From: a virus
Virus record (IMG/VR): IMGVR_UViG_3300025293_000011
Span: 1-39,540 of that record
DNA: 39,540 bases
Strand: one strand, 5' to 3'
Part shown: piece by piece, positions 6,701 to 33,793 of the stretch
Layout: each line of letters opens with the position of its first letter
Numbering within the stretch: the stretch's first letter is position 1
Program-made: the position numbers and the translations under genes
Notes under the pieces: model-generated
Database searches by the model: none
What the model was told of the DNA's origin: nothing
Seen by the model: only the letters and a program-made list of their open reading frames with translations

Positions 6701-7933
6701 CCAGTGGATCTTTCGAAGCGTGGGCGACGTCGGCAGCGTCTGCTCGAGCGGCTCTTCGATCGTGAACTGGGTGGCGCTCAGCACCTCGCGCACGGTGACC
6801 ATCTGGCCGCGCTTTTCGTTGGTGGCGTCGTGGCCCAGGTCGCGCGGATCCTCGGACGCGATCATGTCCACGTCGCCCTCGATCAGCCCGTGGGCCGTGC
6901 TGGTGGTGACGGTCACGAGCGTCTTTGCGTCGTCCACCTGCGTCTCGGTGATCGATGCGATCGAGACCGGAGTGTCCTCGCGGCCGGCGAAGAGGATCAT
7001 CGGCACACCGCCCGGATCGGCGTCGGTGTTCGCCACATTGGAGAAGTCCAGCCGCGCGCCGTTCCACACGAAGGTAACGAAATCGACGTCCGGCAGCAGG
7101 CGGCTATCCATGCGGTAAGTCGCGCCGGGGCGGGCGTGGATCTCCTGCCCGCCGGCCGCCTCGATGAAGGCCAGCGCCTTCGCCTGGCAGTCCGTCGCGC
7201 CGGTCGGGTCCATGCCGGCATGGTCGAAGGTCCAGCGATCCGCCGGCACCCAGCTGCGCCCGTCCGATGTGGTCAGTGTGCCCGCGCCCGACGTCACAGT
7301 GAAATTGCACACAACCCCGAAATTCAGGACGGAAATGACCTGGACCGGCGCCGGGATGACGGCGGCCTGGGCCGCAGCCAGGCTTTCATACGGCTTGCCG
7401 ATCGAGGCACTGGCGGCCGCGGCGACGGCCGAGGCCTGGGCCGTTTCGATCTGCTCGCCGGTGGGTCCGTTCTTCCAGCCATCGGCCGTGGCGATGAGAA
7501 CCTGGTTCTCGACGGGCAGCGGCATCCGGAGCGGGCTGCCATCGCCCTCGCCCAGGGGCAACTTCGGCGCCCGGGCCAAGCTGCGCTCGAGGTCCTGCAA
7601 GGCGAGCGTGTTGCGGTCGAGCTGACGTTCCAGCCCCTTTTCGCGGACGCCGGCCCCAAGCCAGCCTTGTTGCTTTGCCGTGGATCGATCGATGCGCAGG
7701 GTTTTGCCCGCGTGCGCCAGGAGCGCCGTGGCGGTCAGCGTGACGCTGCCATTCTCTGCCGGCCCGGCCGGCGAGACGGTATAGTCCGCGGCCGCCAGCA
7801 CGGTGATCCCGTTTTCATCTTCCACCGTGACGATCAGGTCGCTGGCGCTGTCGTAGGCGTTCTGCGTGGTGAACGGCCCTGCGGACGCGATGGCCGGATA
7901 GGCGGGCGGCGGATTTGCGACGTCCACTGTCAT
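3782..7933 (-). CDS. Tail spike/fibre with T7-fibre-like N-terminus and two beta-helix regions
   Basis: A 1383-aa receptor-binding protein. Residues 1-150 resemble the T7-type fibre N-terminus that attaches to the tail: a DYTVSP segment, TLRIDRST, and the helical DRNTLALQDLERSL segment. Near residues 240-280 a DPTGATDC/ALAFIEAAGG/ARPGATYRM run has the form of the start of a pectate-lyase-like right-handed beta helix. A second such start lies at about 869-921 (DAGTDSQPRIEEAI, LYAKPGAYYLGTT). The C-terminus has SDTDTGIYLAGANELGI, then a small FSDGTNWRR end motif, both usual in trimerising phage tail spikes. Depolymerase activity is possible but no catalytic site is assigned. ATG 7933 follows GGAGATCTGCA and overlaps the upstream stop by 4 bases. 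Confidence 0.87.
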   Translation of the reverse strand: MTVDVANPPPAYPAIASAGPFTTQNAYDSASDLIVTVEDENGITVLAAADYTVSPAGPAENGSVTLTATALLAHAGKTLRIDRSTAKQQGWLGAGVREKGLERQLDRNTLALQDLERSLARAPKLPLGEGDGSPLRMPLPVENQVLIATADGWKNGPTGEQIETAQASAVAAAASASIGKPYESLAAAQAAVIPAPVQVISVLNFGVVCNFTVTSGAGTLTTSDGRSWVPADRWTFDHAGMDPTGATDCQAKALAFIEAAGGQEIHARPGATYRMDSRLLPDVDFVTFVWNGARLDFSNVANTDADPGGVPMILFAGREDTPVSIASITETQVDDAKTLVTVTTSTAHGLIEGDVDMIASEDPRDLGHDATNEKRGQMVTVREVLSATQFTIEEPLEQTLPTSPTLRKIHWRLGIKMKGMLFITGPGRRPLTAGLGGIDFTWCMRPSIEQLSTDRVDYQALVFDNCYEPESGPLHCVFDKKGASEAVQYGLTPKNGTTKGRFGFVSGTGGKHLADWTRNGAHGIGRHCIFEGIRAVQAWNAAFGMHGNAVDCLVKLIQADNCEFAMGIRAPGWRVDRLEARHCDKALLISENPFGWDIGLMYLEDCGYGMHATDDQFIGAVEAGNFRIGRTIAYRTKFNVIYADFRNLPVYTEVDAPVLAGSTTTSMVVGQFPVPWHNQAGAMTGAPLAFDPDGAGSAVEVRRIATHDVVDGKNVLTWTTPVGTAPLAGLATYTLRTVVKGLDFRNIDSHDCANADVAIYGNVVTPLIDNVYATSNTVNAAPVILIQGDADTYCEGATLRNIRRFNKGDVNVSPFSKGTRIDNTFVDRQNLEDWLAAGNQLVAEERVFVDGAELVGAAGATDLPALPGLVPARDAFDFSYFGVPVNDAGTDSQPRIEEAILYAIESGKRLYAKPGAYYLGTTVEAPPTADMQLFLGGAKFIALEGWAASNTPMFDFTSIAGENKTFEIFGGVFDAQNMPRGNLNSNDIMRVSVGSSTRQTLINGAFFYHGPDFREGKAGGDCGLFILGDNAKIDVRGQGAPDQVVYYTASSTPGADRGHTVEIKARGLRCNRVAAVKRGMEQIFGDIIARECVEGWSPVPATFPGSGFTYTADPSARAVQARVNAWRCQWPVKSAVEVGAQYQIIAMESGLYLPADADAAVYASGEAGSRFEGSVGCGGSITAHGFNEDLQAYRQGQGSWDPTKFRAIEFDEHDGNDENDDPVVTPAEYNDFRVHSNGLDRVVFEQGSCDNNLVRFSGSSYGVTAPNNNSIFERIRSSGAMDSGSAASPGSYFSSDTDTGIYLAGANELGIAAGGSAAVTFTSTRATFTAFPRPPSLTVAELPPASSPGNRAIAYVSDESGGAVLAFSDGTNWRRVTDRAVVS

Positions 7934-21369: not shown

Positions 21370-22398
21370 CTATTTCGCAGCGAGCTTCGACAGCTCGGTG
21401 TAGCGCTTGTGCAACCGGTCGAAATCGTGCCCGGGCTGGCCGGTCCGCTTCGCCTTGATCGCCTTCTGGTAGTCGCTGTCGGGCTTCATCATGGCCTCGA
21501 GCTCCGCACGCGCGTCCGCCGGCGTCGTGCCCAGCGTGGATCCGCCGTTACGAAGCCCCGCTGCGCTGTCGTCACCCATCATCTGGCCGATGGCCGCGAA
21601 CATCTTGATGGTGTTGGCGTCGCCGGTCTTGGCCGCCAGGACGCCCGACAATGCGGAAATGGCGTCGCCGTCCAGCCCGGCCTCGGCCGCGATCGCGCTG
21701 GCCGCCTGCTGCGCCTGGGCGACTTTCGCGCTGTATTGGTCGCCCCAATCGGATTGCAGCGCTTCCTGCAGCTTGGTGTTGGCCAGGCTCGCCTCGGTCT
21801 CGGCATCACCCAGCATCTTGGCCATGTGCCCGGCGAAAAGCTCGGTCATCCCCGCCATCTGGGCTTGCGTCATGCCGAGCTCGTGGGCCTTTGTTCGCGC
21901 CACGCCCTCGAGCTGTTCATCCCAAGGCTGATCCTTCGGCCAGCTCTCTGGCTTGGCGATGTCATACTTGTCGGCCGCCTCGGGGATCCCGAACACGTCA
22001 CCGTTGGCTTTCAGCCACTCGGCCACGTCCTGCCCCTCCTTGGGACGGTCCATCAGCTGATCGGCGGGCTTGCCCAGGCGCTTCTCGGCGTTGCTGTAGA
22101 AATCCGCCAGCTTCCCGATCGCCTCGACGGGATCGTCGACGGTCAGGCCTTTCGCCTGCAGCATCTGCCGGGTCTGGTCGTTGAACCGGTCGCCCTTCCA
22201 CCAAGGCGCCGCGCCGCCATCGCCGCCGCTCCCGCCCGCCCCTTCGCCACCGGTTCCGCCGTCGCCGCCCGTCCCTTCGCCGCCAGTACCACCGTCGCCG
22301 CCTTCGCCGCCGGCACCGCCGCCGGATCCGCCTTCGCCTTCGCCCTCGCGCAGGATCTCGCGCCAGCCGGGCCGCCCCAAAAAGCGATCAATCGTCAT
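21370..22398 (-). CDS. Capsid scaffolding protein
   Basis: A 342-aa protein. Residues 18-65 are a low-complexity Gly/Glu/Asp linker built from GG(E/D)GG-type repeats. A helical body with coiled-coil character follows (LGDAETEASLANTKLQEALQ, AQAQQAASAIAAEAGL), and the end is basic (LHKRYTELSKLAAK). Position just before the capsid gene, high helix content and a basic C-terminus are the usual features of podoviral scaffolding (head assembly) proteins. ATG 22398 follows AAGGAG. It overlaps the upstream gene by 11 bases. Confidence 0.85.
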   Translation of the reverse strand: MTIDRFLGRPGWREILREGEGEGGSGGGAGGEGGDGGTGGEGTGGDGGTGGEGAGGSGGDGGAAPWWKGDRFNDQTRQMLQAKGLTVDDPVEAIGKLADFYSNAEKRLGKPADQLMDRPKEGQDVAEWLKANGDVFGIPEAADKYDIAKPESWPKDQPWDEQLEGVARTKAHELGMTQAQMAGMTELFAGHMAKMLGDAETEASLANTKLQEALQSDWGDQYSAKVAQAQQAASAIAAEAGLDGDAISALSGVLAAKTGDANTIKMFAAIGQMMGDDSAAGLRNGGSTLGTTPADARAELEAMMKPDSDYQKAIKAKRTGQPGHDFDRLHKRYTELSKLAAK

Positions 22399-25623: not shown

Positions 25624-25929
25624 TCAGAGGGAAAGACAGCCGGCGCAGAACAGCACCAGCGATACGATGGGCATGACGCCCTGAAGGGTCACCACGGCCC
25701 GCGTCTCGGCGATCGCGGCGTCAGGATCGGCGATCAGGAACATGCCAATGGCCCAGCTGATCGCCAGCGCGACCGCGGCCGCGATCAGTCCGCAGATGAA
25801 CCAAAGGTTCACGCTGTCGCCGAGGTTGCCGATGATCGCCATGAAGGCGTTCAGCAGAACCAGCCCCTCGATCGCGAAGGCTCCCAGCCGCTGCACCGCG
25901 CGCGCCTGGATCTTCTGATAGTCGGTCAT
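25624..25929 (-). CDS. Three-TM membrane protein in the packaging module
   Basis: A 101-aa protein with three hydrophobic segments at about 17-35, 43-66 and 82-101 and an extra-membrane ADPDAAIAETR loop. It is holin-like in size and topology but sits between terminase and portal genes, far from the lysis genes. ATG 25929 follows GGAGGGATGCA and overlaps the terminase stop as ATGA. Function unknown; a second lysis or superinfection role is possible. Confidence 0.7.
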   Translation of the reverse strand: MTDYQKIQARAVQRLGAFAIEGLVLLNAFMAIIGNLGDSVNLWFICGLIAAAVALAISWAIGMFLIADPDAAIAETRAVVTLQGVMPIVSLVLFCAGCLSL

Positions 25930-27740
25930 TGCATCCCTCCGTAGGGGCTCAGGACATCCCAGCTGGTGGTCAGGCCGCCCTGGGACTTCGGCGGTCGGCG
26001 GCTGCCGGGCATCTGCCCGGCCTCGCCCTCGCGGCGGCGCTTGTCGTCCAGCCGCGACATGTAGGGACTGATCCCATCGGCCCGGTGCGCGGAAAGCAGC
26101 AGGTACTGCACCGCGTCCATGACGTTGGCCTCGGTCAGCTGCTTGTTCGGGACCTTGCGCTTGTCGCCGTTCCGGTCGACCTCTTCGGTCCAGACGTACC
26201 GGGCCTCGAACCCGCGGATCAGGAATTTGCAGCTAGGATCGATCAGCAGCCCGGGCTCGCCGGCCTCGAGCGGCGCCTCGAGGGCCGCGCGCACGGCCTC
26301 GAGGCGCGGCTGGATCCGGTTCGTGCCGATCCGCTGCGGCCGGATGTGGAAGCCCGCTGCGCGCCCGACCATCAAGTTCCAGGTGGCGTTTTCGTCGGCG
26401 GCCTGGCTGGCGCCGTGCTCGCCCGCCATGTCGCCCCAGCCGGCCTCGATCCGGCCGTTCGGGCAGCGTTCGTCCAGGAGCTCGGACAGCCGCGTCCCGA
26501 ACACATGGGCAAACAGCCGCTCCCGCGGGAAATGCAGCTCGGCCAGGATGCGCCATCGCCAGAAGCCGGCCGGCTGCGCAATGACAGCCGCACCCTTGAA
26601 GCCCTGGTCGAGACCGATCCGGATCGGCAGCTGCGGATCGAAGGGGATCGTCTCACTGGCCACGTGGATCCGGCGCTGGAACTCGCGGCCGAACACCGGC
26701 TCGCCGGCCTTCAGGTAAACGACCTTGTTGTAGACCAGCCGGTCGATCATGTCGCCGCGGCCGGCCAGGCGCATGGACGCGATCTGGCGGCCGTAATAGC
26801 TGGGCGACAGGTTCTGCACGTTCTCGCAGCCCTGCTCGCCGTAGCCTGGCTGGCGATAGAAGCTGATCCGGATGGGCTTCGCACCTTCAGGCAGCGCGGC
26901 GGTCAGCTCGGCCGCCATGCGATTGCGTTCGTCCTCGTCGTGGTAGACCCGGAAGGTCCAGTTGTCCTCGTCGGGCGCGTTGAAGTCGCAGCAGATCTGA
27001 CCGTAGCTGCGCAGGATATCCGCCAGCCCGGCGAAGTGTTCGCGCGACGGGTAGCGGTCGATCCGGCCAATGCCCACCGTCAGGATGTCGACCGGCATGG
27101 TATCGGCTTCGTTCAGGACGATATCGGTGGTCTGAACGCCCCGCATCGATGCGATAACGTCGTCGCCGAAGGCCATGAACTTGGCCGTGAACTCGATGGG
27201 CCCGTGCTCGTCCTCGAACTGGATCACGTGGGTCACCGGATCGCCGCGGCCGCCAGACCAGGTCCCGAGGCTTTTCGGGAAAGTCTCGAGGTATGACGGG
27301 ATCGTCGTCGACCACAGCTGGCGGTAGGTCTCGCGAATGAACAGGACCTTGTAGCGCCGCACGCCGTCGACGGTGGACCGGGGCATCATGATCGCCCGGC
27401 GCCGGCGGGACTTCATCAGCGTCGTCGTCTTCCCCGAGCCCACCGGGCCCTGGATCCCGATCACGTCGTCGTCGGACCAGTAGAAGTTTTCCGCGATCGG
27501 GCCAGGGAAGGTGCTGTCGTCGATCCGATCAAAATCGGCCTCATCTGCGAACTTGCGCCCCAAGGCGCTTTCGTCCAAGCTCTCGATTGCCTCTTTCGCC
27601 AACAGCCCTTCCAGCTGCGCGCCCATGCTCCCCGTGTCCGCACCCATGCGGCCAGCGGGTGTTGATCCCCCCCACCCCTCGTTCGGGGCGGTCCAGAGGC
27701 CCCCCTGACCCCCGACCCGTCGTCCCAAGGTTACGCTCAT
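25926..27740 (-). CDS. terL: Terminase large subunit (T7-like)
   Basis: A 604-aa packaging motor. The Walker A motif GPVGSGKT is at residues 98-105, the Walker B-like DIVLNEAD at 206-213, and the nuclease domain begins near RIGLDQG with Asp378. A long N-terminal linker (residues 1-50) rich in Gly precedes the ATPase. The family cuts concatemeric DNA and drives it into the prohead through the portal. ATG 27740 was preferred to an in-frame GTG 6 bases upstream because it gives the ATGA overlap and better spacing from an AGG. Confidence 0.92.
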   Translation of the reverse strand: MSVTLGRRVGGQGGLWTAPNEGWGGSTPAGRMGADTGSMGAQLEGLLAKEAIESLDESALGRKFADEADFDRIDDSTFPGPIAENFYWSDDDVIGIQGPVGSGKTTTLMKSRRRRAIMMPRSTVDGVRRYKVLFIRETYRQLWSTTIPSYLETFPKSLGTWSGGRGDPVTHVIQFEDEHGPIEFTAKFMAFGDDVIASMRGVQTTDIVLNEADTMPVDILTVGIGRIDRYPSREHFAGLADILRSYGQICCDFNAPDEDNWTFRVYHDEDERNRMAAELTAALPEGAKPIRISFYRQPGYGEQGCENVQNLSPSYYGRQIASMRLAGRGDMIDRLVYNKVVYLKAGEPVFGREFQRRIHVASETIPFDPQLPIRIGLDQGFKGAAVIAQPAGFWRWRILAELHFPRERLFAHVFGTRLSELLDERCPNGRIEAGWGDMAGEHGASQAADENATWNLMVGRAAGFHIRPQRIGTNRIQPRLEAVRAALEAPLEAGEPGLLIDPSCKFLIRGFEARYVWTEEVDRNGDKRKVPNKQLTEANVMDAVQYLLLSAHRADGISPYMSRLDDKRRREGEAGQMPGSRRPPKSQGGLTTSWDVLSPYGGMQ

Positions 27741-27949
27741 GGCCACACCTGCGGGTCGGCCGAAACGCTGTATGGGGTCACACAGGGGGGCATAGGGCCA
27801 GGGGCGGCGACGCCCCCCCGGGGGGTCACGCGCGCGCGCGCCTGGCGCGCCTGGTGCGCGCGATCGAGGCCGCGCGCGTCCGTCTCCGGTTGATTTTCGA
27901 TCAACTGGGCTGGGGCCGTTTGGCCCTTATTTTGCTGGGCTTTCGTCAC
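27737..27949 (-). CDS. Small protein between the terminase subunits
   Basis: A 70-aa frame from GTG 27949, overlapping the small terminase stop as GTGA and the large terminase start as ATGA. Overlaps at both ends argue that it is translated. Its DNA is extreme: a C7G6 run (27813-27825), six CG repeats (27829-27840) and a GGCGCGCC palindrome. The protein is Ala/Arg/Pro-rich with no recognisable domain. The DNA may matter more than the protein, for example as a packaging site. Confidence 0.55.
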   Translation of the reverse strand: MTKAQQNKGQTAPAQLIENQPETDARGLDRAHQARQARARVTPRGGVAAPGPMPPCVTPYSVSADPQVWP

Positions 27950-28599
27950 TCCGTCCGACCCTCGCTGTCCGACGCATCGGCGTCGTCTTCTCTAACCTGC
28001 TGATTTCGCTGCATTTCATGCGCCACGTCCGCCGGCATCATCCGACGGCTCGCCGGCGTCACGTCGCGGGCCCGATCGGCGGGATCGCCGGTGGGCTGCC
28101 GGGCCGTGAAGATGGCAACGGGCTGGGTCACGTGGACATCGGGCGTCACCTTGGGCGCGCCGTAGGGCATCAGCGCGTCGGAGGCGCGCAGCTGGGCCGT
28201 GTAGCACTGCTGGAAGACCTCGAGCCGCTTCGCCAGGCTCACGCGGTCGCGCTTGATCGTCCCGTCCTTCAGCTCGTCGGGCTCGGCACCGTGCCGCGCC
28301 CAGGACAGGATCCGCTCGGCCTGCTCCATGGCGGTGGCGATGGCGTCCTTGCCGGTGGTCAGGCCCGCGATTTCGGCCAGCTGCTGCTCGGGCAGGCGAT
28401 AGCCCTGGGCGGCCAGGAACTCGCGCAGCTGGCTCAGCTGCTTGCCCTTGCCGCGCGTCGGCCGGTCTCCCTGGTCCGCCGCGCCGCTGTCCTGCTCGTC
28501 GGGCAACAGCGACAGCTGCTCCTGCAGCGCCCGGTCGTGGTCGAGGCGTTCCGCCGCCTGCCGCGCCAGCGCCTGGTATTGCGTGTCACGACCGGGCAT
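27946..28599 (-). CDS. terS: Putative terminase small subunit
   Basis: A 217-aa protein directly upstream of the large terminase. Residues 45-95 form a helical region with FLAAQGYRLPEQQLAEIAGL, which could be a DNA-binding helix-turn-helix. A middle helix (SLAKRLEVFQQCYTAQLR) could be the oligomerisation part, and a charged flexible tail follows. Size and place fit a small terminase that recognises phage DNA; no exact family is named. ATG 28599 was chosen over a TTG one codon upstream. It is the first gene after the putative origin region. Confidence 0.68.
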   Translation of the reverse strand: MPGRDTQYQALARQAAERLDHDRALQEQLSLLPDEQDSGAADQGDRPTRGKGKQLSQLREFLAAQGYRLPEQQLAEIAGLTTGKDAIATAMEQAERILSWARHGAEPDELKDGTIKRDRVSLAKRLEVFQQCYTAQLRASDALMPYGAPKVTPDVHVTQPVAIFTARQPTGDPADRARDVTPASRRMMPADVAHEMQRNQQVREDDADASDSEGRTE

Positions 28600-29023
28600 C
28601 AAAATGCACCCTTTTCAACGATTACAAAGGCATAGCCAGCCGCCACGACAGTTTCGGCCGAGTGTCGTGGGCCTGTCGTGGGCCTTGTCGTGACCTTTCT
28701 TTCCATCTTTTCATAGAGATAAGAGAGAGCCACGACGCCACGACGCAGAAGACACGTTACCGCCATCGCGCGGGCGCGCGCATGCGCACACATGTGAGAG
28801 ACGCTGAAAACCTGTCGTGGTGTCGTGGATGCGAGGTAAAGCATTGATCTCGAACGATATTCGCCCACGACACGCCCACGACAACGGCGATAACGGCTGT
28901 CGTGGCGTCGTGGCCCCGAACCCACCGGCCAAAGGCCCAGATCCGCGAAAATATAGGCCTGCCCACGGGTGCGGGTGCGGACAAGGCGGCGCGATATCAG
29001 GGGGTTGCGGGCCATCGTGAGGG
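28600..29023. other. Putative replication origin region
   Basis: These 424 non-coding bases lie between the helicase and small terminase genes. They contain the octamer cluster listed separately and an AT-rich tract (about 28694-28729, CTTTCTTTCCATCTTTTCATAGAGATAAGAG-like) that could melt easily. The place beside the replication genes and the iterated sites suggest the origin. The region must also carry the mRNA leader or promoter for the late genes, but no clear -35/-10 pair is seen. Confidence 0.55.
28643..28913. repeat. Iteron-like cluster of TGTCGTGG octamers
   Basis: Twelve copies of TGTCGTGG or its complement, some with one changed end base, start at 28643(-), 28663(+), 28674(+), 28686(+), 28730(-), 28738(-), 28813(+), 28821(+), 28865(-), 28876(-), 28898(+) and 28906(+). 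Most lie in tandem pairs spaced 8, 11 or 12 bases, and the pairs alternate in orientation. Further copies at 29041, 29053 and 29069 run into the 3' end of the helicase gene. Spacing near one helical turn suggests cooperative protein binding. Confidence 0.85.
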
Positions 29024-30952
29024 TCAGCCTAAATCGTCGATGTCGTGGGGAAGGTCGTGACGCGCGGGCGTCGTGGCGTCTCGGCCGTCGCGGTCCATTG
29101 GGAAGGACAGAAGGCCGGGGATCGATGTGAAGGGCACGTAGTGGCCACGCGACGCGACGCCGGCGAGGGTCAGGGCCTTGGTGCGCTCGGCGCCGGTCAG
29201 GCGGCGCGCGGCCTGCGCCCAGACGCCGTTTTCCCAGGCGCTGCCCTCGAAGAGCCGGCACAGGCCGCTGAACGGCTTGTTCGGCAGGAACAGCTGCGCC
29301 GCTTCGCGCTCGCCCTGGACGCGAAGGCCGATCTTGGCCAGGTGGCCGTTGGCGGCCTTGGCCTTGTCGCGGGCGTCGAGGTCGTCGGTGAACAGCTGGC
29401 GCGGCGCGCCGGGCAGCATGGCGGCCGCCATAACCCATTGTGCCACGGTGAACTGCTCGCCGCGCCGGTACGGATCGAAATACTGCGACAGCAGCCAGGT
29501 CAGCATGTCCTCGGCATTGCTGCCGACTTCTGTACTGTCCTCGACGATAACGCGCGCCATCTTGGCCGCCCAGTTGTCCAGGACATCCTGCTGGGGCAGC
29601 TCGGCGCTGTGGGCCATGTCGGCCATGGCCAGGACGGTGGCGTAGTTGTCGGCCGCGCGGCCGGTCTGCTCGTGACGGGCCAGCGCCGCGCGCCACAGGT
29701 CCAAGCGCGCGTCCCAGGTGGGCCAGCCGTCGATCAGGCGCTGTCGCAGCCTGGCGCCCAGCGTGCGCAGCCGGCGCGGGTTCAGATCGGGTTTCGGCGC
29801 GCCCTGGGGCAGCCGGTCCAGGTCCAGTAGGATCAGGCGGGATCGGTCCTGCGACGGCATGTCGGGCACCAGGATCGAGCTGAACAGGAAACAGCTGTAA
29901 GCGTTCGACTGGTAGCCTTTCTGGTCCGACGATCCGCGGAAGATCTGGCCGCCCGATGCGGCGCGGCGCGCGAGCTCGATGACGGCACGCGTCTTGCGCG
30001 GGTTTTCGGGATCCGGCTCGAACTCGTCGATCGCCACGGGCAGGCTCGAGAAGCCTACGACCGACCGGATCCCGGCCTCGGTGGCGTCGCTGGCCTGTTT
30101 CAGGCCCGTCTCGCCACCGTGCAGGTAGGACAGCAGCTGCTGGAACGATGACTTGCCGGTAGCCTGGTCGCCGGTCAGCCAGCCGACGGGCCGCCAGCTG
30201 AGCGCACCGCCCAGCATCTGGGCGCAGATCAGACCCAGCGCCAGGTGCGCGTCGACATCCGGCCGTCGCCAATTCCAGGTCTCGATCAGCTCGGCGATGG
30301 TTGCGGCTGCATCGGTGCGCCCGGTGGATGCGTCGCCCCGCGGGGTGCGGGGCGCGGCCGAGTAGACCTTGCCCTGGTAGACGCCCGGCGGCATCCACTG
30401 GCCGCCGATCAGGACCTCGTCGCCGGCATGCAGCACCAGGTTGCCGTCATCGTCCGTCCAGGCACCGGTGCCGCGCACGGCGCCAGTCGGATCCCACACG
30501 CCGCACTCGTCGCAGGCGGCCATCATGATCGAGCTCGTCACCTGGGCGTCGAAGGCATTGCGCCGGGGGACGCCGTCTTTTCCGTAGCTCGGGAAGTGAT
30601 GGGCCAGCAGCGCCAGGCGCCCGCCGAAAAGTGACAGGATCTTCTGGTTGTCGTGCTTGGTGACGGCCCTCAGCTGGCCACGGACGTCCAGGTACCAGCA
30701 GGCATCGCCGTTGACCCCAAGAGGTATGACCGGGCACCCGTCGAAAATCGTGCCATGCGCTCGTCCACGACCGCGCTCACCGCCGCCGTCACTGCAGGAT
30801 GGATCGGCCTCGGCATCGTTCGGCCGAGCGCCTTCATTTGTTCGAGCGTCATCGCTCGGCCGTCCGCTGTCATCATTCCGACCATCGGGGATCTCCTCGG
30901 GTGCGTTGCGCAGCTCTTCTGCGAGTTGGCTCAGTGGGGCGGTGTCGGTCAT
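29024..30952 (-). CDS. Replicative helicase-like ATPase
   Basis: A 642-aa protein. The first 65 residues are acidic and disordered. Residues about 66-200 form an N-terminal domain with four cysteines. An AAA-type/SF3-like ATPase core has Walker A GDQATGKS at 261-268 and a Walker B-like LPVAIDEFE at 304-312; FSSILVPDMPSQDRSRL follows with a likely arginine finger. The helical C-terminus runs to the stop. With the TOPRIM primase encoded upstream, it is inferred to unwind phage DNA. ATG 30952 overlaps its upstream gene as ATGA. Its last codons lie in the iteron-like repeats. Confidence 0.8.
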   Translation of the reverse strand: MTDTAPLSQLAEELRNAPEEIPDGRNDDSGRPSDDARTNEGARPNDAEADPSCSDGGGERGRGRAHGTIFDGCPVIPLGVNGDACWYLDVRGQLRAVTKHDNQKILSLFGGRLALLAHHFPSYGKDGVPRRNAFDAQVTSSIMMAACDECGVWDPTGAVRGTGAWTDDDGNLVLHAGDEVLIGGQWMPPGVYQGKVYSAAPRTPRGDASTGRTDAAATIAELIETWNWRRPDVDAHLALGLICAQMLGGALSWRPVGWLTGDQATGKSSFQQLLSYLHGGETGLKQASDATEAGIRSVVGFSSLPVAIDEFEPDPENPRKTRAVIELARRAASGGQIFRGSSDQKGYQSNAYSCFLFSSILVPDMPSQDRSRLILLDLDRLPQGAPKPDLNPRRLRTLGARLRQRLIDGWPTWDARLDLWRAALARHEQTGRAADNYATVLAMADMAHSAELPQQDVLDNWAAKMARVIVEDSTEVGSNAEDMLTWLLSQYFDPYRRGEQFTVAQWVMAAAMLPGAPRQLFTDDLDARDKAKAANGHLAKIGLRVQGEREAAQLFLPNKPFSGLCRLFEGSAWENGVWAQAARRLTGAERTKALTLAGVASRGHYVPFTSIPGLLSFPMDRDGRDATTPARHDLPHDIDDLG

Positions 30953-31260
30953 CCTCGGGGCCACCTGCGGTCATACTTGTCGATCGCGGCGATCAGCAGG
31001 GCGGCGGCGCGCACCATGTTTTCGCGGGGGCCGCGCGGCTTCCACCACTTGAAAGCGAAGGGCCAAACGTTGGCTGCGATGCCCGGCCGTGCGAGACCGC
31101 CGGCCGCCAGGGCATAGCTCGCGGCCGCCATGGGCAGCGCGCGCTCATCGTGATTGTCGTCGTGGCCATCGTCGAAGCCCTCGACGAACAACTGCCGATC
31201 GCGCTCGGTCAGCACATCAACGGCGCCGCGGCTTAGATCTTTCGTGTCGATAATGCTCAT
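30949..31260 (-). CDS. Conserved phage early protein (WPFxxKWWKP type)
   Basis: A 103-aa protein with the pattern ALPMAAASYALAA in the middle, then WPFAFKWWKPRGPRENMVRAAALLIAAIDKYDRR. This pattern recurs in small early proteins of many unrelated temperate phages, whose function is unknown. ATGA overlaps at both ends place it between the helicase and the small protein gene upstream. Confidence 0.75.
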   Translation of the reverse strand: MSIIDTKDLSRGAVDVLTERDRQLFVEGFDDGHDDNHDERALPMAAASYALAAGGLARPGIAANVWPFAFKWWKPRGPRENMVRAAALLIAAIDKYDRRWPRG

Positions 31261-31481
31261 CTGCGCCTCGGCGATTTCGTGATGCGCTTCGACCCTTCCA
31301 GGACCGCTTCCGCGTCCCAGATCTGGATGCCGTAAGCCGTCAAAACGCCTGCCACGGCGGGCTGAAGCGCATGGCAGAAGGTCAGCTCGTCAGCTCTGCT
31401 GCAGGCGCAATTATCCCTGCCGTTCTGCGAAATGCAGATGCTGCGAGCTGCGCCAGCCATGCCGAGCCGATCATTGATCAT
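31257..31481 (-). CDS. Small cysteine-containing early protein, function unknown
   Basis: A 74-aa protein with four cysteines in its first 40 residues (SICIS, NCACS, TFCHA), possibly a metal-binding knuckle, and a helical end. ATGA overlaps at both ends show that it is part of the replication operon. A later in-frame ATG (31460) is possible. No family is recognised. Confidence 0.65.
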   Translation of the reverse strand: MINDRLGMAGAARSICISQNGRDNCACSRADELTFCHALQPAVAGVLTAYGIQIWDAEAVLEGSKRITKSPRRR

Positions 31482-32641
31482 GCCGCGCCCTCGCCCATGG
31501 CCACCACGCCGCCGGCGCCGGCTGCGCGCAGCGCGTCGTTCAGGTCCTTGCCGCCCTGCCCGTTCTGCCAGACGGCGACGGCGCGTCCTTGGTTGAGAAA
31601 CGCACGGCGCGCACGCTCGAGCTGCTTTTGCGCCTGCTCGCCTTCGTCGCGATCGGCAATCAGCGTCACGCGGGTCACCGCCGGCGGCAGCACCACGTTG
31701 GCCAGGTTGCCCAGGCTGATCGCGGCCAGGACCCTATCCTCGGGCACGACCAGGGCGCAGCTCAGCGCGTCCTCGATGCCCTCGGCGATGAACACACGGG
31801 TGCCGTGCGGCGCATCCTTCAGGCTCGGCGGTTGACCACCGCGCGGGCCGGCGCGGGTTCCGCGCCAGACATGGATCGCGCCACCGCCATACATGCCCAG
31901 GACTTTCTTGGCATTCGGCACCGGTGCCTTGTCCCAGCGGCCGTCGGATCCCAGCGCCAGATAGGTTCGGTGGCAGGCGACGACCTGGCCCTTCGCGTCC
32001 ACCACCGGGGCCACCATCGCGGGATAGCTGCCCTCGATCACCTCGCCGGTTTCGGGATCGGTGTGGCTGTAGAAGCAATCGCGCAGATAGCGCAGCACGC
32101 GGATCCGGCGCGGAAGACGCGCCAGGTCGATGCCGCGCCGGTCGCGCAGATACTGGCCGACGGGTGTGCCCTCAATGCCGTCGACGCCCGAAAGCCACAG
32201 GGCCTTGGCCTGCCGGGCGCGGCGATCCGCGCGCTCGCGCTCGTTGCGCTCGGCCTGGGCGCGGCGTTCCTTCGCCTCGGCCGCGGCGCGTTCCCGCTGG
32301 GCGCGGGTGGCAGGATCCACCGTCTCGAGCCCCAGGAACGCCCGGGCCTCGCGCAGCGCGCCGGCCAGGTCGCAGTTCAGATGCAGCTGGATCAGATCCA
32401 GAAGGTCACCGCCCTGCCCCGTTGCGTGGTCATGGAACCGGCCGGCATAGGGTCCGGACAGGTTCACATAGAAGCTGCCGACATTGCGATCGACGCGGCC
32501 GGGGTTCAGCGTGAAATACTTGCCCTTGTCGGTGTAGCTGCCAGGCGCGGCCGGCGCGTAGGTCTGCGCGACCCGGTCCACCTGGGCCAGGAGCATATGC
32601 TTGATGTCGTCGATGCTGTGGGCGTAGCGGCGGTCAGACAC
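31478..32641 (-). CDS. DNA primase with TOPRIM domain
   Basis: A 387-aa protein. An N-terminal zinc-ribbon-like domain lacks the usual cysteines (residues 30-85, with AGRFHDHATGQGGDLLDLI). A long charged helix follows at 110-145. The TOPRIM domain has EGIEDAL at about 287-293 and the metal-binding LIADRDEGE at 327-335. It would lay down RNA primers for phage DNA synthesis with the adjacent helicase. The GTG start at 32641 is fixed by GGAGG five bases upstream and an 8-base overlap with the preceding gene; an ATG 21 bases further up has no ribosome site. Confidence 0.85.
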   Translation of the reverse strand: MSDRRYAHSIDDIKHMLLAQVDRVAQTYAPAAPGSYTDKGKYFTLNPGRVDRNVGSFYVNLSGPYAGRFHDHATGQGGDLLDLIQLHLNCDLAGALREARAFLGLETVDPATRAQRERAAAEAKERRAQAERNERERADRRARQAKALWLSGVDGIEGTPVGQYLRDRRGIDLARLPRRIRVLRYLRDCFYSHTDPETGEVIEGSYPAMVAPVVDAKGQVVACHRTYLALGSDGRWDKAPVPNAKKVLGMYGGGAIHVWRGTRAGPRGGQPPSLKDAPHGTRVFIAEGIEDALSCALVVPEDRVLAAISLGNLANVVLPPAVTRVTLIADRDEGEQAQKQLERARRAFLNQGRAVAVWQNGQGGKDLNDALRAAGAGGVVAMGEGAA

Positions 32642-33485
32642 TGACACCTCCGGACAGCGCATGCAGCACTGCGAAGGCCTCGTTCACGCTTTCGCTGGGG
32701 ACCAGCTCGCGACGTCGCTGCCGGACCTGGTCGACGCTACACCCGATCGCCGCTGCCATGGTCGCAGGGCTGGCCCGCTGGGTGACCAGGCGGACAAGAT
32801 CGCGGTCGAGCTCGTCCGACCAATTGAAGGGCAGCTCCCGCGGCGCATCGTCCGTGGTCTGGGTCTGATCCTTGACCACGGCGCCCGCTGCCTCGGCGTT
32901 GTGGTGGATGGCTTCACCGCCTTGGCCCGACCCGTTCCGGTCGGGTTTCGTCGCAGCGGCTTCCCCATCGCTCCCCTCGGTATGTCCCGACACAGGTGGT
33001 GCAGCGGCATCCGGAAGATCCGGCGTTGCTTCACGCTCCCACTGCGCCCTCATGCGCCTGATCTTGTAGTGCGTGCCTGGCACCGGACGCCCCAGCTGGG
33101 CCGCGATATCCTCGATCGAATGCCCCGCCAGGAACATCGTCTTGGCAGTGGCGAGCTCAGCTTCGGTCCAGCGCGCACCGGATTTCGGCGTGTCGACGCA
33201 TTGCGTCTCGGCGCTGGGATGAAGGGGCCCGGAAGATTGCTGCGCTTCCTCTGGCTCTGGGCGCGGGGGTGACAGCGGCCCCTTCATCGCAGCGCCGGGC
33301 AGCACGCCCGGCAGGGACAGGTCCAGCGTGATGACCAGGCCGTCGACCTTGACGTCAACGGTGACCCCGTCGTCCTCGATGTCAGCGATGAAATCCGACA
33401 CTTGGGACACGGCATGGCGGGCGCATTCCAGCGCTTCGATCTGCTCGACCAGGCTCCGTTCCATCGCGCGCAGATCCCCCTTCAT
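32634..33485 (-). CDS. DNA-binding protein with two SANT/Myb-like helix-turn-helix domains
   Basis: A 283-aa protein. The first domain is at about residues 104-147 (ARWTEAELATAKTMFLAG, then IEDIAAQLGR and THYKIRRMR). The second is at about 220-262 (FNWSDELDRDLVRLV, then MAAAIGCSVDQVRQRR). Both have the Trp-x2-Glu start and three-helix pattern of SANT/Myb or GcrA-like domains. A low-complexity Pro/Ala-rich stretch lies between them. It may be the regulator or initiator that recognises repeated sites such as the octamers at 28643-28913; this is inference from position. ATG 33485 overlaps its upstream neighbour as ATGA. Confidence 0.75.
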   Translation of the reverse strand: MKGDLRAMERSLVEQIEALECARHAVSQVSDFIADIEDDGVTVDVKVDGLVITLDLSLPGVLPGAAMKGPLSPPRPEPEEAQQSSGPLHPSAETQCVDTPKSGARWTEAELATAKTMFLAGHSIEDIAAQLGRPVPGTHYKIRRMRAQWEREATPDLPDAAAPPVSGHTEGSDGEAAATKPDRNGSGQGGEAIHHNAEAAGAVVKDQTQTTDDAPRELPFNWSDELDRDLVRLVTQRASPATMAAAIGCSVDQVRQRRRELVPSESVNEAFAVLHALSGGVSV

Positions 33486-33793
33486 GCCGCAGCCCCGCGC
33501 AGCGCGTCCAGGGCATGCCCGGTGCGCCAGGTCAGCACGGCCTCGAGGCGGGCGCGCACGGCGTATTCCGCATGGCACGCACCGCGCACGGATTGCCTGG
33601 CGCTCAGGAAATTCTCGGCCGCGGTAACCAGCGGCCCGACATACAGGTGCTGGGCATTCGCCTTTTTCACCGCATCGCGGACGATTTCGACCATCAGGTA
33701 CTCGTGCGGAGCCGGCCGCACGTGACTCACGAAGATCGCGGCCAGCGCGTTGATCAACACGTGATCGTTGGGTGTCAGGCGCAGTTCATCCAT
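33482..33793 (-). CDS. Small early protein, function unknown
   Basis: A 103-aa helical, soluble protein (DELRLTPNDHVLINALAA at the start, LEAVLTWRTGHALDALRG at the end). ATG 33793 overlaps the preceding gene by 8 bases and its stop overlaps the next gene by 4, as in the rest of this operon. No motif is recognised. Confidence 0.7.
   Translation of the reverse strand: MDELRLTPNDHVLINALAAIFVSHVRPAPHEYLMVEIVRDAVKKANAQHLYVGPLVTAAENFLSARQSVRGACHAEYAVRARLEAVLTWRTGHALDALRGAAA

Follow-up and report, generated by a model that had tools for sequence, protein, structure and literature searches.

An iteron array whose spelling covaries with the C-terminal hairpin of a neighbouring helicase: a putative phage replication origin

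Genes and repeats at the locus

The window analysed here is a virus record of 39,540 bases (IMG/VR IMGVR_UViG_3300025293_000011, positions 1 to 39,540). A Toprim primase gene, a helicase gene, an array of octamers, a TerS-like gene and the large terminase gene follow one another in minus-strand order, which bears out the preliminary description in placing the octamer cluster between the replication genes and the terminase. The features are as follows.

25926..27746, minus strand: terminase large subunit
27946..28602, minus strand: TerS-like protein of 218 residues, adjoining the array in relatives too; function assigned from its place
28643..28913, no strand: iteron array of 12 sites in alternating groups (TGTCGTGG or one-mismatch variants), proposed replication origin
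28643..28650, minus strand: outermost single iteron
28663..28693, plus strand: three-iteron group (28663, 28674, 28686), spacing 11 and 12
28694..28729, no strand: AT-rich stretch that may act as a DNA unwinding element (64% AT; window 34%)
28730..28745, minus strand: inner iteron pair (28730, 28738), spacing 8
28746..28812, no strand: array centre, holding a 23-bp alternating purine-pyrimidine tract (28774-28796, by eye)
28813..28828, plus strand: inner iteron pair (28813, 28821), spacing 8
28865..28883, minus strand: iteron pair (28865, 28876), spacing 11
28898..28913, plus strand: outer iteron pair (28898, 28906), spacing 8
29024..30964, minus strand: proposed initiator helicase (phrog_21086), model fold like SCCmec Cch, T599 in a C-terminal hairpin
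31478..32662, minus strand: Toprim primase (DUF7146 and Toprim_3), presumed replication partner
32634-33578: D5-like double-HTH protein with two SANT/HTH-like segments (phrog_323)

The window contains 10 exact copies of the octamer TGTCGTGG, against an expectation of 1.5; nine lie within 28643-29048 and the tenth, at 1777, is isolated. The preliminary description counted twelve octamers in 271 non-coding bases, a number that stands if one-mismatch variants are included but not for exact copies, as 28643-28913 holds 8 exact copies and four with one mismatch (TGTCGTGA at 28686; CGTCGTGG at 28730, 28738 and 28906). The cluster is non-random, as was claimed: the 421-bp intergenic region contains 8 exact copies and 12 at up to one mismatch, whereas 1000 dinucleotide shuffles of this region gave at most 1 exact and at most 4 near copies. 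These shuffles, together with the geometry conserved in some 90 loci (see below), leave virtually no room for a chance or low-complexity accumulation of repeats, in favour of which nothing was found. The spacings of 8, 11 and 12 bases, the alternating directions and the AT-rich tract between the groups were likewise confirmed. Three more copies reported within the helicase gene are indeed present (29041, exact; 29053, two mismatches; 29069, one mismatch), but they are not counted as array members, because those at 29041 and 29069 were seen, among the relatives, only in a Palleronia prophage with an 89% identical helicase. There is just one array in the window, and its 12 sites lie directly downstream of the helicase gene end (29024). 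No DnaA boxes (TTWTNCACA) were found in the window, and its GC skew, showing no clear switch, is uninformative.

None of the 10 scanned members of the TerS-like family, which includes orthologues such as L033:6155-6700, matched Pfam. A QNQ-like motif is seen repeatedly close to the C-terminus in this family, and its distant members have an AT-hook-like motif, GRGRPxGxxNKRT. Proteins resembling the D5-like double-SANT/HTH protein are present in some relatives.

The array in related phages and prophages

Related loci were fetched by helicase, TerS and TerL. Roughly 100 related phages and prophages carry arrays of the same geometry (104 loci called), of which some 80-90 non-redundant loci entered the conservation comparison. 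The loci fetched by helicase or TerS mostly carry one array each, and so do the TerL-fetched loci that carry the helicase; in BcepC6B and other TerL relatives with different replication genes no array was judged comparable. The nearest relative, the prophage of Palleronia pelagia DSM 26893, keeps the array and the same octamer, while in the next one, the Phycocomes zhengii locus (helicase 62% identical), the array is kept with all repeats of TGTCGTAG type. What is conserved at the same place in relatives is thus the layout of the array, but often not the octamer itself; the criterion set in the preliminary description, octamer conservation in close relatives, is better put in terms of layout.

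Read along the genes, the first half of the layout consists of two forward repeats, two reverse repeats 11-12 apart and two forward repeats 8 apart. After a centre of ~50-100 bp there follow two reverse repeats 8 apart, two or three forward repeats (spacing 12, 11) and one reverse repeat, which makes the whole nearly two-fold symmetric. The general form of the repeat is NNNNN-AC-N; its spelling varies between phages, but within a phage the copies have all changed together. Over 84 loci, 31 different versions of the four bases preceding AC were counted, with at least 44 changes of spelling on the helicase tree. Exceptions to AC, with orientation set by the layout, are AG in MinM1 and AT in two loci, L173 and L058; for near-palindromic repeats the orientation was taken from the 8-bp pairs. 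The L058 repeats (GTTATCCAC) can be taken for DnaA boxes, but this locus shares the layout of Bdellovibrio phage phi1422, and its assignment is ambiguous.

An AT-rich interval lies to the right of the centre, with 67% AT against 36% locally, and exceeded the local value in all 60 arrays measured. The alternating purine-pyrimidine run of the centre has a mean of 20.3, compared with 6.3 in shuffles; these means are approximate, because the centre was mis-assigned in a few loci (e.g., L033, L034, L037). The tract at 28774-28796 in the middle of the window's array is Z-DNA-prone, and such tracts are common in the array centres of relatives.

Covariation of the repeat with the helicase

The structure model of the window helicase (pLDDT 83.5) found its best match in SCCmec Cch (5dgk_B; Z 16.7, rmsd 5.8, 421 aligned residues, model 64-617), followed by SaPI5 Pri-Rep (7om0, Z 15.4) and then by MCM and pox D5/E5 helicases. 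By this predicted fold the protein belongs to the Cch/SaPI Rep structural class. Pfam DUF927 gave no match for the window helicase and matched 8 of 36 relatives, with a best E of 9.7e-5. Residue T599 is placed by the model in a C-terminal beta-hairpin (strands ~593-600 and 603-611), possibly a winged-helix wing; for the C-terminal domain by itself, fold matches were only weak (best Z 3.7).

The repeat bases were compared by adjusted mutual information (AMI) with about 1,020 columns of the helicase, the TerS-like protein and the primase. The top column was helicase T599 against base 3 (AMI 0.612, z 6.7; background 0.089, sd 0.078). Arg, Lys or His at residue 599 goes with G at base 3 (41/44), Thr with A (26/26), and Tyr, Gln, Leu, Met or Ile with C (7/7). 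On a helicase tree from which the C-terminal part had been left out, 8 independent pairs (A/not-A against T/not-T) gave 7.5 in the same direction and 0 in the opposite one (median p 0.016), and the nearest pairs agreed (10/11 vs 6/30, Fisher p 6.5e-5). The association can be followed between close relatives: the helicases of L109 and L143 are 88% identical and differ in T or R at 599, matched by A or G at base 3. It also holds, as R with G, in three phage isolates that were not part of the training set.

In a strictly tree-controlled comparison with post hoc residue sets, T599 again led (6.0 pairs in the same direction, none in the opposite one; association 0.96), but one TerS column came close in pairs (5.9), with a looser association (0.79); in the overall association none of the TerS columns stands out for base 3. 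For bases 1 and 5 the top columns, P611 and A604, are weaker; both lie within the same C-terminal hairpin, the link of A604 with base 5 being not significant on the helicase tree. The covariation of N440 with base 4 was rejected as phylogenetic (0 of 9 independent pairs on the tree), and a robust partner was found for base 3 only. The covariation of these sequences makes a strong case for the helicase as the reader of the array, though not a closed one, owing to the close TerS column, to orientation calls that partly relied on AC itself, and to the double-HTH protein (32634-33578) being outside the columns compared. The same pattern makes the C-terminal domain, through the T599 hairpin, a candidate for setting iteron specificity.

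A putative origin, packaging and known replicons

Conservation at the same place, the AT-rich stretch, the covariation with the C-terminal hairpin of the helicase and the presence of arrays next to more distant helicases where no terminase gene is annotated all support the origin proposed in the preliminary description. We consider it very probable that the array is an iteron-based replication origin of SaPI/SCC type, read by the DUF927-like helicase of the phage. The octamers would be recognised by the beta-hairpin of the helicase C-terminal domain, and helicase subunits would gather on the array's two halves, which face opposite ways, perhaps forming a double hexamer. Melting of the AT-rich stretch at 28694-28729 would follow, the helicase would load itself, and the Toprim primase would prime at the array. 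Under such a mechanism the concerted change of the repeats within a phage would stem from their all having to fit a single hairpin.

The late-promoter control region named as an alternative gained nothing, as no sigma-70-like promoter was detected in 28500-29200. The array does lie upstream of the terminase genes, and the phage does encode a D5-like regulator, the double-HTH protein, that could read a late-gene control region there; however, the repeat covaries with the helicase, and each locus has a single array, not one for every operon, which renders such a function highly improbable.

The main rival is a packaging site, because the array also lies tight against the TerS-like gene. The array would then be only a pac or cos packaging start recognised by the adjoining TerS-like protein, resembling the pac of phage P1, where short repeats lie on both sides of the cut. 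The gap between array and TerS hardly varies (median 60 bp), whereas the distance from helicase to array, with a median of 201 bp, exceeds 600 bp in 20 of 89 cases and reaches 3.4 kb. Moreover, in two rearranged loci (L173:1256-6644 and L174:2175-6437; order array-TerS-primase-helicase-TerL) the helicase lies downstream of TerS and the array stays with TerS, and the array was present at TerS-family loci with enough upstream sequence. Against packaging alone, the covariation singles out the helicase hairpin, a conserved interval rich in AT is typical of origins, and arrays occur beside helicases without an annotated terminase nearby. In phi1422 and in Acinetobacter phage Acjo_20 the array adjoins a distant helicase, and no named terminase was found among the annotated genes of the fetched stretches, most of them 'hypothetical'; the L058 contig has an array and no TerL match; in MinM1 the array directly follows the helicase and the terminase lies ~1.3 kb further on. 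Two TerS-family loci whose contigs gave no helicase, L177 and L169, have no array, although they may be fragments. A search among the loci L078-L136 for TerS without the helicase did not separate an origin from a packaging site, as those with enough upstream sequence had both helicase and array. While the constant linkage to TerS raised packaging as the main reading, the covariation and the arrays without an annotated terminase nearby lowered it, and packaging as the sole function appears improbable. A variant compatible with the origin, in which the array doubles as origin and packaging site, would account for the helicase covariation as well as for the tight TerS linkage; with no TerS column prominent as a reader of base 3 in the overall association, it is unlikely.

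The origin proposed here had been called one of a new type, which applies in part. SaPI Rep and SCC Cch2 already follow such a scheme, being self-loading helicases that recognise, through the C-terminal domain, iterons lying immediately after their own gene; Cch2, a member of the D5 family, binds direct repeats there with that domain, and its putative origin has only three iterons (AAGTG), while Cch (DUF927) is related to the SaPIbov1 Rep initiator and is assigned no origin in the same paper (PMC7581432). The likeness to SaPI Rep/ori (SaPIbov1, SaPI5 Pri-Rep) lies in iterons that immediately follow the helicase gene, though displaced in some relatives, and in the model match to SaPI5 Pri-Rep, whereas SCCmec Cch is the closest structure. 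The system described here differs in its carriers (phages and prophages instead of satellites), in the Toprim-type primase, in its quasi-symmetric layout of 12 sites and in the extent of diversification, with many iteron spellings across the family. A search of the open-access literature, with most subscription journals outside its reach, found no paper describing the array.

In satellite phage P4 (alpha/ori-crr) a primase-helicase also reads short repeats, and the P4 repeat GGTGAACA likewise ends in AC-A; however, alpha is one fused protein and its repeats form two separated sites, whereas here primase and helicase are separate genes and there is one array. T7-type promoters, many per genome, co-evolve with one RNA polymerase and thus share the relation of many sites to one reader, although function and protein differ.

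The phage family carrying the array is large and unusually diversified. It is possible, rather than probable, that this family comprises dozens of distinct origin 'addresses', each with a matching hairpin and a simple residue-to-base code, whose diversification would reflect a selective advantage of escaping cross-recognition by prophages or satellites in the same host, much as in immunity groups. If so, initiator specificity would be predictable from sequence. Initiator-origin specificity has usually been studied one replicon at a time; ~100 natural helicase/array pairs with one layout and varied letters bring the reading code, and the way origin specificity evolves, within reach of direct tests. 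The array also offers a means of locating origins in phages of the same family.

Two further repeat clusters were observed. Pasteurella phage Pmp11 (L072) has nine TGCGAA direct repeats in a single direction within terS (21461-21649), which look like an ordinary pac site. In Vibrio phage VA-RY-3 (L074), nine AGGATA repeats at 6793-7040 run in mixed directions with a differing layout and are separated from the terminase by small genes.
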